Positions 1 to 37,745 of a stretch of 37,745 nt of DNA are shown in pieces; position 1 is the first letter of the stretch; each line of letters begins with the position of its first letter. Source of the DNA: Candidatus Gastranaerophilales bacterium. GTDB taxonomy: Bacteria > Cyanobacteriota > Vampirovibrionia > Gastranaerophilales > Gastranaerophilaceae. The position numbers and the translations under genes are program-made. The stretch spans positions 1-37,745 of the forward strand of contig CALUWL010000011.1 in NCBI GenBank assembly GCA_944324445.1. The letters are read 5' to 3'. Below the pieces are notes generated by a model. The model saw only the letters and a program-made list of their open reading frames with translations, ran no database searches and was not told the DNA's origin.

Positions 1-501
1 CAATTTGAAACAATATATAGGATTAGCCTTGATTCAACAGATGAAATTGAAAATGATGAATTAAGAGGCAGAGGCAGCTTCAGAAAAGCACTTTGCGCTA
101 TTATGAGCCTTTTAAAATATGAATTCAATCCGATAATTAGCGTTGTGAACTATAAAAATCGCCCAAAGGAAGAAATTTTTAACGAATTTAAAAATTATTT
201 CTTTAAAAAAGGTTTTGAATTGGAAGATATTAATTTAAAAATAATTCCTTATTTTTCAAAGTCGGATGAAACAAATCAGGTTGAAATGATTGAAAATATT
301 CAAATTAAAAAGCTTGATTGTTACAATTCAAGAGTAGTTTCTCAAAATGGGGTATATTCTTGCCCTATGCTGGTGGATGATTATAGAGCTAGATTGGGCT
401 CATCTTTGAGCAATTGCTCAAGAATTAATTATCTTGATTGCGAAAAATGCACTATTTGTATAAAAACTAATCAAAAAGTCCAAGTCAACGATTGGATGTA
501 G
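1..501 (+). CDS. Radical SAM family protein, C-terminal part (5' end outside window)
   Basis: The reading frame is open from base 1, so this is the C-terminal 166 residues of a longer protein. The internal ATG at 103 is not its start. The fragment reads through a segment typical of the end of a radical SAM barrel (a D-E-x-R-G-R-G-S-F element followed by hydrophobic strands). It then has a cysteine-rich tail with Cys residues spaced like a SPASM/twitch-type auxiliary iron-sulfur region: CYNSRVV, YSCPMLVDDYRARLG, NCSRI, DCEKCTIC. The DDYRARLG stretch between cysteines resembles a group of uncharacterised radical SAM proteins. The radical SAM CxxxCxxC motif would lie outside the window, so the family call rests on the tail alone. 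Substrate unknown. The stop codon is followed directly by a gene-free hairpin-rich region. Confidence 0.6.
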   Translation, partial: QFETIYRISLDSTDEIENDELRGRGSFRKALCAIMSLLKYEFNPIISVVNYKNRPKEEIFNEFKNYFFKKGFELEDINLKIIPYFSKSDETNQVEMIENIQIKKLDCYNSRVVSQNGVYSCPMLVDDYRARLGSSLSNCSRINYLDCEKCTICIKTNQKVQVNDWM

Positions 502-14430: not shown

Positions 14431-14703
14431 GTGAAACTGCAAACAAAATATTTTATTAACGGTTTAATTTGTTTAATATTAGGGCTTTTGTGCATTACGT
14501 ACTTACCTTATATAGTAAGAGATTTATTTATTAAAATTCAATTACAAAATTATATTTTTGTTCAATTGGAGCTTTTTTTGTTAATTGCCTGTTCTATTTT
14601 TTATCTTTTTTCTCCAAAATACTACACAAAGCAGATTTTAAGCTTTGTTTTAGGATATGTTTATTATTTGTTTTTTATTAAAGTTCTTGTGAATTATCTA
14701 TAA
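14431..14703 (+). CDS. Small membrane protein, 90 aa, three predicted helices
   Basis: It has a GTG start with AAAAGG 8 nt upstream. Hydrophobic segments at about residues 10-30, 44-61 and 69-87 predict three membrane helices. No known family is recognised. It follows the WYL pair by 30 bp and may be co-transcribed with it. Its last 26 bp overlap the 3' end of the convergent TolC-like gene, which is unusual and means the two transcripts would be antisense to each other there. Confidence 0.6.
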   Translation: MKLQTKYFINGLICLILGLLCITYLPYIVRDLFIKIQLQNYIFVQLELFLLIACSIFYLFSPKYYTKQILSFVLGYVYYLFFIKVLVNYL

Positions 14704-16240
14704 CTTCGGAGCTTTCCGGTTTTAAGGTTTGACCTATGGATTTTTCGAGGTTCGCTCTTGCGCTGTTATATTCATAGATTGTTTGATAATATGTCAGTTT
14801 TGCTTGAGAAAGAGCTACTTGAGCGTCTTTTAATTCAATTGCATCGCCATAACCTACTCTGTATCTTCCTGAAGTCAGGTCATAATTTTCTTGAGCTTTA
14901 TCCATTGCAAGTTTTGTAACCGGAATTCTTGCTTTAGCATCTTTTAACCTTGTATAGACGCTTTGGATTTCATAATATATGTCGTTTACTTGTGCTTTTG
15001 TATCATATTGAATTTGTTGATAGGCTGCTTTTGCTTCTTTAATTTGGTTTCTTATTAAAACGGGATTAACGGTAGGAAATGTTAAAAAACCGCCGTAATT
15101 ATACCAGTTTCTATCCGTCCAATTATCTATTCCGCCTTTTGAATAGCTTGCTTGAAATTCTAAACTGGGAAGAAAAGTTTTCCAAGCTAATTTAATACCT
15201 TGTTCTGCCGCATCAACGTTCAGCATAGCTCCTTTTAAATCAGGACGGGCATTATTAGCTATTTCAACAGCTTCTTTCATTGTTATTGAAACGGGTTCAT
15301 ATTTTAAAGATGTATTTATTGAATAAGGGTCAACAAAAGGAAGCCCCATAGCATTATTTAATTTGGAATATGCAATGTCAACGTTATTTTCAGCTGCAAT
15401 TAGCTGTTGTCTTGCATCTTCCATGTTTGTTTGAGCAAATAAAACATCTACTTTTGTTTTTGTGCCGACTTCCCAAAAGGCCATTGCCTGATGATAAGTT
15501 TGAGTGAAGCTATCCAGAGTATCTCTTGCAACTTTTCTTTGATCAAATGCGTATAAAAGGTTATAATATGCGTCTTTTACAGCGCATACAACCTCATTTA
15601 CAGTTGTATCTATATCGGTTTTGGCTTTTTCGTACGATATTTTATCTATTGTATATTGGTTTTGAGTGTAGCCAAAATCCCAAACAAGCTGTTTTATGGT
15701 AATTGTACCTAATGTATATTTATTAAAAGCGCTTGCTTTAATGTTTCTCAGCATACTTAAATCAGGCATGTTATGGTTAATTGAGCTTGACCAATCAAGT
15801 CTTGGAGTGTAGCCTGACAATGTTTCCCATTTTTGATATTTAGCTATTTCTGTTTTAGCGTATGCTGATTTAATTTTAGGATTATTAATAAGCGCTAATT
15901 CAAGGCAATCAGCTAAATTTAGCTCAACGGATTTTGAAATTCCGCCTTCGAGTTTAATTTTTTTGTCGCTTGCTTCTCCGACATTCATATAAACATCTGT
16001 CGGAATTGAATATTTTTCTTTTACTTTATCTGTTACCTGATATTGTTTTTTAGGTTTTTCGGGTTTAACTTTGATTTTTTTAGGTTTTTTATTTTTTTTA
16101 AAAATGCTTAAACCCTTATCAAGCTCTTGTCTTTCAGCGCTTGAATTGCTTTCGTTTGTTGTTGTTAAGTCATCTGCTAATGCGATTGAAGTGGCAAAAA
16201 GACAAAAGACAATAAATAAAGCTTTAATTTTTTTGCTCAT
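14678..16240 (-). CDS. TolC-family outer membrane efflux protein
   Basis: This is the outer-membrane channel of the tripartite pump encoded upstream. I choose ATG 16240 ([20 protein letters not shown]), with a strong GAGGGGG Shine-Dalgarno, over the TTG at 16255; this gives 520 aa. A signal peptide ends near ALA at residue 22. A charged lysine-rich segment (about 45-75) precedes two structural repeats with the OEP pattern: [20 protein letters not shown], and the second repeat with [14 protein letters not shown]. The C-terminal coil has [17 protein letters not shown], typical of TolC/OprM. Its Shine-Dalgarno lies within the end of the RND gene, which it overlaps by 17 bp. Confidence 0.88.
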
Positions 16241-24668: not shown

Positions 24669-26465
24669 ATGAAAAAAATTTTTGCTTTTAGTTTAATTGA
24701 ACTTATGATTAGTTTAATTACAATAAGTTGTATAATGGCTGCGTTTACGCCAATTTTGACTAAAAAATTGAATAAAACAAATGTTACAATGTCTATATCT
24801 GAAATTTCATCAAAGTGTGATAAATTTTCTTCCGATTGTGTACTTTGTTATCCTAATAAATGTTTAATTTGTAATAAAAGTTGTACTGATGGCGAAATAA
24901 AAGATTCTGAAAAATGCAGTTGTGAAACTTGTGCTGCAATGTATCCTAATTGTTTAGAGTGTAAAACTTCGGGTTGCCAAAAATGCTTGTCCGGTTATGG
25001 ATTAACGGCAGATAAGTCTTGTGAATTATGTCCTTTGGGATATTATTCGGATGGTTCAACTTCCTGTAAGCCTTGTTCTGCAGGCAAATATCAGGATACA
25101 ACAGGTCAAAGTACTTGTAAAGATTGTCCTGCGGGTAAATATCAAGATTTAGAAGGTCAAAGTACTTGTAAAGATTGTTCTGCAGGTAAATATCAGGATT
25201 TAGAAGGTCAAACTACTTGTAAAAGTTGCCCGATAGGTAAATATCAGGATGTAACAGGTCAAAGTACTTGTAAAGATTGTTCTGCAGGTAAATATCAGGA
25301 TTTAGAAGGACAAACTACTTGTAAAAGTTGCCCGATAGGTAAATATCAGGATGTAACAGGTCAAAGCACTTGTAAAGATTGTCCTGCAGGTAAATATCAG
25401 GATTTAGAAGGACAAACTACTTGTAAAAATTGCCCTGATGGTAAATGGTCAACTTCTGCTTCAAATACATGTGATATTATTTGCGAAGTTGGATATAGTT
25501 GTTCTTCCGGCAGTATGCAGGTTTGCTCTGCGGGAACTTATTCTTCAGGTTCTTTGGGATTGTGTTTAGCATGTGAAAAAGGTAAATATCAGGATATAAC
25601 AGGTCAAAGTAGTTGTAAAAGTTGTCCTGCAGGTAAATATCAGGATACAACAGGTCAAAGCAGCTGTAAAAACTGTCCTGATGGGAAATATCAGGATTTA
25701 GAAGGTCAAAGTACTTGTAAAAGTTGTTCTTCAGGATATACTCCTAATTCTACAAAGACAGGATGTGAAAAGACTTGCTCTTGTTCTGAAAATTATTATT
25801 TATATTATTCTTTTTTTGAAGATGAAAAAGAATCGAAGTATAGTTGCAGCAGCAGTTGTCCTGAAAATTTCGGAACGGTGATAACAGATGAAAAAGGATG
25901 CAAAACTTGTCGAATCGTATGTCCGAGCAATTATCGATATGATTCATATAATGGATGTGCACAATGTTATTCTCCTAGTGTTCCAAGTAAATTAAATGCA
26001 ACAAGTTGTACTTGTCCTTCCGGTTATTATATTGAGAAGAATGTCATAATCGCAAAAATATATGCTTCCGATGGAACTTTGTATAAGAATATAACACTTA
26101 CTGGCGGATTTAATAAATGTATAGAAAATTTAAACCCCAGTCTTGCAGGATGCAGGTCGATAGATACCGTACCTAGCACTAATCATTCTACTTGGGCTAA
26201 TTATGGGTGCAAACCCAGCTGTAATTGGTATAAAGGTGAATATATTGATACAACAGACGGAACATGTAAACAATGCAGCGGTTACTCTACTGGATTTGAT
26301 TGTAAATCAAATTACCTTATATCATTAAGCAGAAAATATCTTACTGATGGTAATTTTGTATATCAAATTTCAATTTCATACGATTCTGTAAGTGATGACG
26401 GAAAAACTTTTACAAAAGACGGAGTTACTTATTATATGAAAGCGTTAACAGAATCCGAGTTTTAA
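24669..26465 (+). CDS. Prepilin-like protein with ten 17-residue cysteine repeats (GCC2/GCC3-like)
   Basis: The 598-residue protein opens with a class III (prepilin) leader: MKKIFA then FSLIELMISLITISC, with Glu at +5 and a hydrophobic helix to about residue 28. The residue before the cut is Ala rather than Gly. A cysteine-rich region follows. Seven tandem units of the form C-S/P-x-G-K-Y-Q-D-x-x-G-Q-x-x-C-K occupy residues 136-254, and three more occupy 302-352, resembling eukaryotic GCC2/GCC3 (ephrin-receptor-like) modules. Further cysteine motifs (CSCSENYYLYY, CTCPSGYY) extend to about 560. An AGGA Shine-Dalgarno precedes the ATG. Expected location is outside the inner membrane, as a pseudopilin or surface stalk with many disulfides. 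Function unknown. Confidence 0.8.
   Translation: MKKIFAFSLIELMISLITISCIMAAFTPILTKKLNKTNVTMSISEISSKCDKFSSDCVLCYPNKCLICNKSCTDGEIKDSEKCSCETCAAMYPNCLECKTSGCQKCLSGYGLTADKSCELCPLGYYSDGSTSCKPCSAGKYQDTTGQSTCKDCPAGKYQDLEGQSTCKDCSAGKYQDLEGQTTCKSCPIGKYQDVTGQSTCKDCSAGKYQDLEGQTTCKSCPIGKYQDVTGQSTCKDCPAGKYQDLEGQTTCKNCPDGKWSTSASNTCDIICEVGYSCSSGSMQVCSAGTYSSGSLGLCLACEKGKYQDITGQSSCKSCPAGKYQDTTGQSSCKNCPDGKYQDLEGQSTCKSCSSGYTPNSTKTGCEKTCSCSENYYLYYSFFEDEKESKYSCSSSCPENFGTVITDEKGCKTCRIVCPSNYRYDSYNGCAQCYSPSVPSKLNATSCTCPSGYYIEKNVIIAKIYASDGTLYKNITLTGGFNKCIENLNPSLAGCRSIDTVPSTNHSTWANYGCKPSCNWYKGEYIDTTDGTCKQCSGYSTGFDCKSNYLISLSRKYLTDGNFVYQISISYDSVSDDGKTFTKDGVTYYMKALTESEF
25074..25724 (+). repeat. 51-bp coding tandem repeats in two arrays (7 + 3 units)
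   Basis: Units of 51 bp begin at 25074, 25125, 25176, 25227, 25278, 25329 and 25380, then at 25572, 25623 and 25674. The 102-bp blocks 25176-25277 and 25278-25379 differ at only two positions, a sign of very recent duplication. The repeat keeps the reading frame, so copy number can change without truncating the protein. Confidence 0.85.
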
Positions 26466-35246: not shown

Positions 35247-36950
35247 ATGAGTAATGCTTTAATAAATTTTTATCATAACCTTGAAGAGCCGATTATAATT
35301 TATGATAAAAAGCAGAATATCTTGTATCATAATTTAGCTTTTAAAAAGATTTTCGGCGATTTCAACAATTCTGAAGGATATGATTGTCTTTCAAAGTTGA
35401 GTTATAAATTTTCTTATCAAATGTGTTTTTTAAAATCGGAAGATTTGAAAACATATTGTCCGCCGATTAGCGCCATTAAAAAAGATGTTAATTTTTCTAC
35501 TTTTGCAACTTATCAAAAAGACGAAAATAAGTTTTATCATTTTATGATAAAGGCATTTAGCGTAAAAAGGTACAGAATAGTTTATTTCTATGACATAACC
35601 GATGAACTTAGAACGGAAAAATTAAAAGAAGAAAATGAACGATTAAGAATTCAAAATGTTGAATTTGCTTCAACAAATTCAAAAGCTCAAAATCAAGCCG
35701 TTAAAATGGCTTTGTTAAATAGAATTTCAATTAGTATAAAAAACGAACTTGATATAAAAACTTTAATAGAAAAATCTTTAAGGGAATTAAGCATTGTATT
35801 TGGTGCAAGCAAGAGTTATTTTGCAGAATACGATAAAAATGATTTCATAATAAAATACACATATCCTGAAGTTTATGCTCCTCAAATCGGGGAAAAAGTT
35901 ATATATTCAAAAGCTTTGACTGATGAATTGCATAGCGGTGAAATTTCAATTCAGACTTGTATAAAAGAACATGAAGGAGCATGTATTCCTCTTTTAAATT
36001 CAACAGTAAGAATTATTATGCCCATTATCAAAAATGCTCAGCTTTTTGGTATAGCGGTTATTTTCACTCCCAAAAAAGAAATTACGGCGCTTGAAAGAGA
36101 GCTTTTAACGGGGATTTCAATGGTTATAACTTCTTCTTTAATGCAAGCAAGTTTATTTCATCAGATTTCGCAGAAAAAAGAGGAACTTGAATCAGCAATA
36201 AAAGAATTAAAGGAAACGCAATTGCAGCTGATTAATTCTGAAAAAATGGCGTCATTAGGTCAATTGATTGCATCTGTTGCGCATGAAATAAATACACCGT
36301 TGGGCGCAATCAGCGCAAATAATGAGATGATGGAAAAATTGTTTAACAGTTTTGATGTAAGTACTCTTGATATTTTAAAGGAGATGAACGGAATAGATAA
36401 AGAAGCAATTAAGCGCATTACAAACATTGTGCAATCCTTAAAGCGCTTTGTAAGATTGGATGAAACCGTTCAACAAGAGGCAAATATTAATGAAGAATTA
36501 GATTTAACGCTTGAATTGATAAGGCATAAAATCAAAAAAGGATTTGAAATAGTTAAAAATTATGGAAACATTCCTTTTGTTAGTTGTTATCCTAATATGT
36601 TAAATCAGGTTTTTTTAAATATTTTGATGAATGCGGTTCATTCAATTGAAGAAAAAAAAGCTAAAGATTCATCCTTTGTAGGTAAAATTAAGCTTACAAC
36701 TGAAGTTAAAGACGATTTTTTAAGGATAAGTATTTTTGATAACGGGGTTGGAATAAAAACTTCTAATAAAGATAAGATTTTTTCTGCAGGCTTTACAACA
36801 AAAAAGAAAGGTCAAGGGACGGGCTTGGGGCTAGCAATTTGCAGGAAAATTATTGAAAAACATAAGGGTGAAATTTCTTTTGAAAGCGGAAATTTAGAAG
36901 GTGAAGTTGATTATAAAACAGTGTTTATTGTTGATATACCGCTTTTTTAG
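35247..36950 (+). CDS. Soluble PAS-GAF sensor histidine kinase
   Basis: In order: a PAS-like domain (residues 1-125, EEPIIIYDKKQNILYHNLAF), a short coil, a GAF domain (about 155-305), a coiled linker, and HisKA with H346 in SVAHEINTPLGAISANN. The HATPase domain is complete: N-box NQVFLNILMNAVHSIEEKK, G1 DNGVGI, F-box IFSAGFTTKKKGQGTG and G2 GTGLGLAI. No membrane segment is seen, so it senses a cytoplasmic signal. No response regulator is adjacent on this strand; the NarL-type regulator 4.5 kb away is a candidate partner. No Shine-Dalgarno is evident; translation may couple to the upstream gene. Confidence 0.88.
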   Translation: MSNALINFYHNLEEPIIIYDKKQNILYHNLAFKKIFGDFNNSEGYDCLSKLSYKFSYQMCFLKSEDLKTYCPPISAIKKDVNFSTFATYQKDENKFYHFMIKAFSVKRYRIVYFYDITDELRTEKLKEENERLRIQNVEFASTNSKAQNQAVKMALLNRISISIKNELDIKTLIEKSLRELSIVFGASKSYFAEYDKNDFIIKYTYPEVYAPQIGEKVIYSKALTDELHSGEISIQTCIKEHEGACIPLLNSTVRIIMPIIKNAQLFGIAVIFTPKKEITALERELLTGISMVITSSLMQASLFHQISQKKEELESAIKELKETQLQLINSEKMASLGQLIASVAHEINTPLGAISANNEMMEKLFNSFDVSTLDILKEMNGIDKEAIKRITNIVQSLKRFVRLDETVQQEANINEELDLTLELIRHKIKKGFEIVKNYGNIPFVSCYPNMLNQVFLNILMNAVHSIEEKKAKDSSFVGKIKLTTEVKDDFLRISIFDNGVGIKTSNKDKIFSAGFTTKKKGQGTGLGLAICRKIIEKHKGEISFESGNLEGEVDYKTVFIVDIPLF

Positions 36951-36958
36951 TAAAATAC

Positions 36959-36986
36959 TTGCAAGAAATATTTTATTTGGTATGAT
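36959..36986 (+). promoter_or_regulatory. Predicted promoter of the tRNA-Arg locus
   Basis: TTGCAA (36959-36964), a 16-bp spacer and TATGAT (36981-36986) lie 12 nt before the first truncated tRNA copy, the distance expected for a tRNA promoter. The intact tRNA gene is about 345 bp further on and has only a poor promoter of its own. Confidence 0.45.
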
Positions 36987-36998
36987 TGAAATAGTTAA

Positions 36999-37016
36999 GC
37001 TCTGGTAGCTCAGCTG
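36999..37016 (+). pseudogene. Truncated tRNA-Arg 5' piece, copy A
   Basis: GCTCTGGTAGCTCAGCTG equals the first 18 nt of the intact tRNA except for one C to T change. The match stops in the D-loop, after GCTCAGCTG, and unrelated hairpin-rich sequence follows. Confidence 0.75.
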
Positions 37017-37209
37017 AATGCGAAGCCGGTGCGGAAATTGATAAGGCGTTGAGTCTTAGCGATTAAGCAGATGATGGCGATGCACACAATCCGTTAGCGA
37101 AGTAATGAGCTTTACGGATTGGAAACACCCTAGGGGTGCGTAGGATAATTGAACAAACGAACGACAGCGTTAGCGATAGTGAGATTTGTGAAATACCCAC
37201 AGGAGCTAT
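37017..37209. repeat. Hairpin-rich insert between tRNA copies A and B
   Basis: No gene is visible. Palindromes include AATCCGT (37089-37095)/ACGGATT (37114-37120) and CACCC-TA-GGGGTG near 37130. AGCGA/TTAGCGA words recur, and CCCACAGGAGC (37196-37206) is shared with the mosaic region at 700-710. Base composition is richer in G+C than the genes. Confidence 0.55.
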
Positions 37210-37249
37210 GAGTTTGAAAATTAAATACTATGCCCTGGTAGCTCAGCTG
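37210..37249 (+). repeat. 40-bp direct repeat, first copy, including tRNA 5' piece B
   Basis: GAGTTTGAAAATTAAATACT, then AT and the first 18 nt of the tRNA (37232-37249), match 37311-37350 at all 40 positions. The tRNA again breaks off after GCTCAGCTG. The 61 bp that follow (37250-37310) contain the hairpins TCAAGAAC-TAA-GTTCTTGA (37253-37271) and GCAAC-AA-GTTGC (37282-37293). Confidence 0.85.
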
Positions 37250-37310
37250 CCGTCAAGAACTAAGTTCTTGATAAGATAATAGCAACAAGTTGCGATATCC
37301 AGCTGACACA

Positions 37311-37350
37311 GAGTTTGAAAATTAAATACTATGCCCTGGTAGCTCAGCTG
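37311..37350 (+). repeat. 40-bp direct repeat, second copy, leading into the intact tRNA
   Basis: It is identical to 37210-37249, with an offset of 101 bp. Here the sequence continues into the complete tRNA-Arg, so this copy is the functional junction. Confidence 0.85.
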
Positions 37351-37406
37351 GATAGAGCAACTGCCTTCTAAGCAGTAGGTCATGCGTTCGAATCGCATCC
37401 AGGGTA
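37333..37406 (+). tRNA. tRNA-Arg, anticodon UCU
   Basis: The 74-nt gene folds as a normal cloverleaf. The acceptor is GCCCTGG/CCAGGGT (G1-U72 wobble), the D-stem GCTC/GAGC, and the anticodon stem ACTGC/GCAGT with loop CTTCTAA, which gives anticodon TCT. The T-stem is ATGCG/CGCAT with loop TTCGAAT, and the discriminator is A. CCA is not encoded. It reads AGA, the dominant arginine codon in this A+T-rich genome, so it should be essential. Two truncated 5' copies lie upstream and an intrinsic terminator follows 5 nt downstream. Confidence 0.95.
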
Positions 37407-37411
37407 GACTT

Positions 37412-37441
37412 AAAAAAGACTCCCTCGAGGGAGTCTTTTTT
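37412..37441 (+). terminator. Intrinsic terminator of tRNA-Arg
   Basis: AAAAAAGACTCCC, a TCGA loop and GGGAGTCTTTTTT form a 13-bp symmetric stem ending in six Ts, just after the tRNA 3' end. Confidence 0.9.
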
Positions 37442-37533
37442 GCGTTTAAGCCCACCCCGAAGGATTCTCAGCATCCCCCTACAGTGTTTTAATCTGTTTT
37501 GTTTGATTTGATTATGGGTTAGGGGTCCCTGTT
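37442..37533. other. Gene-free stretch ending in a T-arm-like remnant
   Basis: No supported gene. The last part, GGGGTCCCTGTTCGAATCG (about 37522-37540), looks like the variable loop and T-arm of a tRNA cut off after the T-loop. GTTCGAATCGCA (37531-37542) is shared with the intact tRNA-Arg (37386-37397). The minus-strand ORFs here are the usual translations of tRNA DNA and are not genes. Confidence 0.4.
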
Positions 37534-37745
37534 CGAATCGCAAAAGCAATTCTCACACGCATTTGTACGCAAGTAAACTTGCTACAACTGCGGTTTACCG
37601 AGAGTTTGTTAATACAAACTCCGGCACTCCGTCATTTTATGGCTCATTCTTCGCCATAAATGTCGTTGCGAATCGCAAAAGCAATTCTCACACGCATTTG
37701 TACGCAAGTAAACTTGCTACAACTGCGGTTTACCGAGAGTTTGTT
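37534..37745. repeat. 135-bp-period structured tandem repeat, running off the window
   Basis: 37534-37610 and 37669-37745 are identical over 77 bp, and the second copy is cut by the window end. Each unit holds several hairpins: GAATCGC-AAAA-GCAATTC (one mismatch), CAAGT-AA-ACTTG, GTAAAC paired with GTTTAC, GAGTTTGT-TAAT-ACAAACTC (37602-37621), and TTTATGGC (37636-37643)/GCCATAAA (37653-37660). No ORF is convincing. Confidence 0.8.

Follow-up and report, generated by a model that had tools for sequence, protein, structure and literature searches.

Gene-free tandem cassettes with direct and inverted copies of tRNA arms at both ends of tRNA genes in Gastranaerophilales

tRNA genes of Gastranaerophilales, an order of gut bacteria, appear to undergo an undescribed kind of recurrent remodelling, in which short cassettes built partly from the tRNA's own arms accumulate beside the gene while the tRNA itself stays whole. 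tRNA genes are classic landing pads of mobile DNA. It is quite possible, if somewhat short of an even chance, that these cassettes form a class not described before, mobile or self-amplifying and free of genes, which would colonise both tRNA ends with a direct and an inverted arm copy, fold into a closed junction, and insert, multiply and vanish harmlessly.

Results

The window analysed here is a stretch of 37,745 nucleotides, contig C11 of the host's draft genome (G000, 1.8 Mb); all coordinates refer to its + strand. An intact tRNA-Arg(UCU) gene lies near its end (37333-37406). The native promoter of this gene was found by a consensus scan as TTGCAA and TATGAT separated by 16 nt (36959-36986), an extended site, and at the empty sites of relatives it directly precedes the intact tRNA. 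In the window, what follows the promoter is the tRNA 5' end in two truncated copies. Copy A, the outermost (36999-37016, GCTCTGGTAGCTCAGCTG), comprises tRNA nt 1-18 with one mismatch and has the native short leader. Copy B (37232-37249) matches the same 18 nt exactly and is preceded by a boxA-like leader, GAGTTTGAAAATTAAATACTAT (37210-37231). In both, identity to the tRNA ends after GCTCAGCTG and differing inserts follow, E1 (37017-37209) in the case of copy A and E2 (37250-37310) in the case of copy B. The leader of the intact tRNA (37311-37332) is identical to that of copy B, and nt 1-18 of the gene (37333-37350) make up a third copy, C, so that 37210-37249 and 37311-37350 form an exact direct repeat of 40 bp. 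The initial annotation had described this layout, with copies starting at 36999, 37232 and 37333 and only the third in a full tRNA, a common end point of A and B, and 40 identical bp including the leader in B and C; our coordinates and the intact tRNA call agree with it. Its further claim that the sole good tRNA promoter stands before copy A holds in substance, the other consensus matches being weak. Since the 5' units lie downstream of this single native promoter, they should be co-transcribed with the tRNA. A chance origin of the copies is excluded, as none of 3000 Markov-resampled upstream sequences had even one copy of tRNA nt 1-18 at up to one mismatch.

The two inserts represent two classes of unit. 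In E2 (class I), a hairpin named P2 (TCAAGAACTAAGTTCTTGA, 37253-37271) sits where the D-loop is broken; tRNA-like sequence (GATA..AGCAAC) then resumes, and the D-arm of the tRNA follows in inverted orientation, GTTGCGATATCCAGCTGA (37289-37306). Within the latter, 37296-37306 matches the reverse complement of tRNA nt 12-22 exactly over 11 nt. E1 (class II) is a hairpin-rich interspersed element, whose family occupies the same D-loop position in tRNA-Arg(ACG) with 89% identity. Its right-end type, CCCACAGGAGC, occurs again at position 700 of the window and on contig C30, where a 130-bp unit with this right end is repeated about 2.4 times in tandem between rplF- and rplR-like genes (14541-14850). 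Near the other end of the window, interspersed palindromic repeats (ACCCGAGCCGAGCGAGC.. and AAGCCAGAGTGAAGCCG..) lie in intergenic DNA at 490-780 and 945-1020; they have motifs in common with class II inserts and with the insert at tRNA-Leu(UAG).

Downstream of the tRNA, a terminator-like hairpin with a T run (AAAAAAGACTCCC..GGGAGTCTTTTTT, 37411-37445) can be read directly from the sequence, being absent from the consensus scan. It is followed by a 3' unit (37446-37542), made up of a hairpin region ending in GGGGTCCCT and a T-loop fragment, GTTCGAATCGCA (37531-37542). This unit is diverged; relatives have the full 21-nt tRNA 3' end at the same position. The T-loop-like fragment is overlapped by a 77-bp direct repeat (37534-37610 and 37669-37745) that marks the start of a 3' repeat (37534-37745), inside which the contig ends.

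An uninterrupted version of the locus, which the initial annotation had pointed to as a check, exists among the relatives. In G001, G002, G003, G005 and G017 the site is empty and consists of the promoter, a short leader and the intact tRNA; in G004, G007, G009, G011 and G020, as in the host, it is filled. The histidine kinase that adjoins the tRNA (35247-36950), with orthologues in Candidatus Gastranaerophilales MAGs, served as tree marker. On a 20-taxon kinase tree the filled and empty states are scattered, with about seven changes (6-7 in the bootstrap), at least three of them forced by supported branches. G011 and G017 even have the same native leader, GTTGACAGCCGG, one being filled and the other empty. 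In one MAG, E02__bin289, two kinase-tRNA-Arg(UCU) loci occur (L158 and L159), with kinases 100% and 93% identical to that of the window and arrays at both; they reflect either a strain mixture or a duplication. In L072 (from G015) and L179, a truncated copy of another Arg allele (GCGTCCG.., about 47 nt) lies upstream of an intact GCCTCGG.. allele, apparently through an exchange of the tRNA body at this locus.

The leaders suggest an order of events. In G004, G007, G011 and the host, the outermost copy has the native leader and its identity to the gene is limited to tRNA nt 1..17/18, and the leader before the intact tRNA (of the TGAAAATTAAATA type) is new and non-native. In most cases the leaders of the outermost and the real copy are either identical or unrelated to each other. 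Judging from these sequences, the primary event is a repetition of tRNA nt 1..p, where p is the break point, with a leader brought in, and the 40-bp repeat of copies B and C is a later tandem event, because its leader arrived with an earlier insert. The proposal that the leader plus 18 nt are carried or duplicated is supported as far as the insert brings its own leader in primary cases; the 40-bp repeat is secondary.

The same arrangement is found at many other tRNAs, for which the initial annotation had proposed a search. Whole-genome counts, taken from sampled stretches of the genomes, give 5' copies at 9/33 tRNA genes of the host and 3' copies at four; two more 5' cases lie at contig ends, on C54 (an Ala array) and on C26, so that at least 11 tRNAs are affected at the 5' side. 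At the same threshold G007 has 5' copies at 3/37 tRNAs, in addition to tRNA-Arg(UCU), whose copy has a mismatch (3-4/37 in all), and a 3' copy at one. G028, from another family of Gastranaerophilales, has 5' copies at 13/35 and 3' copies at 12/35, and none of the 24 tRNAs of G034, a third and more distant genome, has a 5' copy. Only MAGs were compared, and array copy numbers are uncertain in such short-read assemblies. Across 427 kb of the host genome, non-coding direct repeats of at least 16 bp spaced 45-450 bp apart all lie at tRNAs, except for the rplF-rplR intergenic tandem. A pattern search for the boxA-like leader joined to a tRNA found 30 of 292 genomes of the phylum, 28 of them in the host's family, and the reversed control pattern had 0 matches in the same 292. 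The spacing of these matches is often constant: G184 has four copies at intervals of 133 bp and G300 two at 107 bp. Arrays recur in many independent assemblies and also within contigs of 100-700 kb.

Across units, the 5' arrangement has a common order: tRNA nt 1..p, a P2 hairpin at the break, often resumed tRNA sequence, a reverse-complement D-arm, an AT-rich boxA-like leader and the intact tRNA. Units are 60-200 bp long and gene-free. The common D-arm break position noted for this locus is real for copies A and B, whereas across units p lies mostly at 11-21 and extends over nt 5-21. In class I the forward copy often resumes after P2 and is then followed by its own reverse complement. In G011, G009, G015 and G022 a hairpin of different sequence takes the position of P2. 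Inverted copies of at least 10 nt of the unit's own tRNA 5' half occur in 24 of 42 5' units, against 0.05 expected from shuffles, and for 12 of 13 class I tails the best pairing partner is the tail's own isoacceptor. These 42 units, and the 30 3' units below, include loci that were sampled non-randomly, so the per-genome figures above should be used for rates. A clear inverted copy is lacking in class II units (E1, Ala and Ile) and, altogether, in 6 of 19 inspected units, E1 among them. The truncated tRNA end and the insert fold as one closed branched hairpin, with z of about -2.5 to -3.5, and in Lys units both sides of the pairing beside the fragment vary together (GTCT:AGAC, GTCC:GGAC, CTTG:CAAG). 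Left ends, among them ACTCTGCC and AGGGACCCC, recur in the 5' units of several tRNAs and, reversed, in the 3' units of other tRNAs. In an Rfam search of the inserts only tRNA, tmRNA and SRP reached the gathering threshold; a weak CopA match falls in a coding region.

At the 3' ends of tRNA genes the units are mirror images: the intact tRNA is followed by a terminator, often an inverted T-arm, a hairpin and a copy of the tRNA 3' end that extends from the T-loop as far as the discriminator base. In G028, tandem 3' units with an inverted T-arm (e.g. GAACGCAGGACCTATC and ACAGGATTTGAACCT) stand past the terminator of the Lys, Phe, Pro and Gly genes. Inverted copies of at least 10 nt of the unit's own tRNA are present in 6 of 30 3' units, against 0.15 expected from shuffles, the other 24 falling short of 10 nt, and two of three folded 3' units close like the 5' ones. 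The structure had initially been viewed as the reverse of classic integration at tRNA 3' ends; the 5' units are real, but they have these counterparts at 3' ends, which break at the T-arm.

The boxA-like sequence TTGAAAATTAAATA often precedes the intact tRNA of arrays and goes with them (12/23 versus 10/105 tRNAs, Fisher p = 1.4e-5); G007 and many G028 arrays are without it. We take it to resemble the boxA of cyanobacterial rRNA spacers; a literature search did not yield the spacer sequence. The same sequence occurs without arrays directly before tmRNA (L248, C58:4416), upstream of small SRP RNA (L255, C67:640) and before tRNA-Tyr (L246, C31:15047). Judged by this distribution, it probably serves as a general leader signal of stable RNAs in the lineage. 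When the boxA-tRNA junction was used as an attP-like query in viral contigs, it gave two matches, in contigs of 159 and 435 kb.

Discussion

The initial annotation read the locus as a small palindromic element in the D-arm, with a duplicated 5' end regenerating the tRNA. This describes the product well, given the empty relatives, the similar arrangement at other tRNAs, the kin of E1 at tRNA-Arg(ACG), the repetition of exactly nt 1..17/18 in primary cases and the single shared promoter ahead of the outermost copy. A simple palindromic element entering the D-arm is nevertheless insufficient, because most inserts hold an inverted tRNA-arm copy, which that reading leaves unexplained.

We prefer, with a confidence only just below even, to regard the units as tRNA-end foldback cassettes that arose by DNA-level template switching or recombination at the palindromes of tRNA arms, combined with unequal crossing-over. 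Synthesis through the palindromic D- or T-arm would switch strand, copy the arm backwards and re-engage upstream, leaving a direct-inverted-direct repeat, with the arms being homogenised along with the switch. Spread between tRNA loci could occur by recombination over the short homology of conserved D-arm and boxA-like sequence, and arrays would grow by unequal crossing-over. Precise deletion between the repeats of tRNA 1..p would account for precise loss and hence for the empty sites. Only events that keep the tRNA whole would survive, and the truncated end, locked in its closed branched hairpin, may leave the real tRNA free for RNase P. Both the enzymology and the direction of these events we infer from sequence comparison.

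The predicted direct-inverted-direct order with local identity is displayed by class I (24/42 5' units), and not by class II. Foldback formation is also consistent with the tRNA-specific inverted copies, the mirror symmetry, the shared left ends, the tandems of constant spacing and the roughly seven changes between filled and empty. Against it stand the 6 of 19 inspected units without a clear inverted copy and the 24 of 30 3' units below 10 nt; moreover, the shared left ends suggest a moving sequence. In the primary insertions the second, boxA-like leader is unlike the native one, which is not expected from purely local switching. A template switch of the purely local kind was in fact rejected: not all insert sequence is locus-derived, P2 being common to different tRNAs and the leader non-native, so both must have been imported.

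A different explanation, which we consider unlikely but worth serious attention, is that a tyrosine recombinase acting in trans moves minimal non-autonomous elements, each consisting of its own leader (5') or terminator (3') and a tRNA end, with crossover at the D- or T-loop; the native fragment would be left outside and the restored tRNA inside. Indeed, the outermost copy keeps the native leader, the intact tRNA receives that of the insert, and identity comprises tRNA 1..p and then stops. The partial copies reach from the crossover to the gene end with native flank outside, and the 3' copies look like classic att blocks. Tyrosine recombinases were found in all five genomes tested, att sites in the 5' half of tRNA genes are known from archaea (PMC8371274), and partial tRNA copies left by integration are common (PMC9897764). 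Yet G028, with the most arrays, has only two Phage_integrase matches, likely XerC and XerD, which could act in trans. Break points spread over nt 5-21, the left end is shared with a different tRNA part at each tRNA, and the gene-less units of 60-200 bp contain inverted tRNA arms, which known att systems do not include.

It is improbable that the 5' structures instead function as leaders in cis-regulation or processing, in which a three-way junction derived from the tRNA would, together with the boxA-like motif, control how selected tRNAs are transcribed or matured, and would be kept by selection though often lost. The layout is kept across families, the pairing of Lys units is maintained, and the boxA-like motif is both associated with arrays and present before tmRNA, SRP RNA and tRNA-Tyr without them. 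However, many close relatives have no unit at the corresponding gene, the set of affected tRNAs differs between species, tandem number varies, and G034 has none at the 5' side. The 3' mirror units beyond terminators, above all the G028 arrays, cannot easily be accounted for by a role of the RNA alone, and make a DNA-level origin likelier.

Still less probable is transposition of a palindromic repeat, MITE- or REP-like, in which the tRNA would be restored by a long target-site duplication. The E1 family, present at tRNA-Arg(ACG) too, is similar to elements outside tRNA loci, and the C30 rplF-rplR copy lies within a tandem of 50-bp repeats. Nevertheless, the duplication ranges from 17 to 57 bp, its start in primary cases being tRNA nt 1, and spaced direct repeats are nearly confined to tRNAs; a target-site duplication of fixed length was rejected on account of this varying length and this boundary. 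A family search for the Y1 (RAYT) transposase, PF01797, was negative in all five genomes with its controls matched, which leads us to reject a REP/RAYT origin. The corresponding search for RVT_1 was positive in the host only, and target-primed retrotransposition was rejected, since the array-bearing G007, G020 and G028 are without this family. The lack of Y1 transposase and the restriction of reverse transcriptase to one genome are in keeping with the foldback reading. The reverse transcriptase gene of the host (L272, C37:1520-2053) lies about 1 kb from a tyrosine recombinase, and is absent from the four relatives searched. Finally, an assembly artefact, raised initially for the 40-bp repeat, or a chance spacer is very improbable: contigs do often end at such loci, and short-read MAGs give uncertain copy numbers, but the arrangement recurs in the independent MAG G020 (99% over 187 bp), in many other assemblies and inside contigs of 100-700 kb, with a chance expectation near zero.

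Tandem inversion duplications have a direct-inverted-direct order, and Rickettsia palindromic elements, REP/RAYT and MITEs are small non-coding hairpins in many copies. The cassettes resemble the latter in this respect, but come without RAYT, hold the target tRNA's own sequence in direct and inverted form, and form spaced repeats almost only at tRNA ends. Template-switch quasi-palindromes and tandem inversion duplications are like the cassettes in repeat order and in homogenised arms; according to PMC8604942, template switching between inverted-repeat arms homogenises the arms and inverts spacers. The cassettes differ by their recurrence at tRNA arms across one order of bacteria and by having a new leader as well as an additional, shared hairpin. 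With phages, ICEs and islands that tyrosine recombinases insert site-specifically into tRNA genes, usually at the 3' end, they share an intact tRNA on one side, a partial copy on the other, native flank outside and breaks in the loops. Unlike such insertions they are non-coding, short and tandem, contain inverted arms and hairpins, and flank many tRNAs on both sides; no dedicated integrase was found. Their 5' orientation alone is not new, because archaeal pTN3-like integrases integrate into the 5' half of tRNA genes (PMC8371274). At the tRNA-Thr locus of Caldiarchaeum, likewise variable within the population, a 5' fragment lies 1.8 kb upstream of the full tRNA (PMC3293823); that insert encodes a recombinase, whereas the cassettes are gene-free tandem hairpin units. 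Literature searches on palindromes in tRNA genes, Gastranaerophilales repeats, tycheposons and tandem tRNA fragments, with subscription journals mostly uncovered, found no description. We therefore hold, with moderate confidence, that this arrangement is undescribed, in which tandem cassettes without genes carry tRNA arms in direct and inverted form and adjoin many tRNAs at either end.

In G028 more than a third of the tRNA genes bear 5' arrays, a frequency that seems unreported in the literature searched. Events at tRNA palindromes are recorded naturally in these arrays, which could serve to separate template switching from recombinase action. They could also explain why MAG contigs of Gastranaerophilales break at tRNAs, and they pose the question of how a tRNA is made from transcripts full of tRNA look-alikes. 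Elsewhere in the window, at 25086-25720, a long ORF contains coding repeats with periods of 51 and 102 bp.
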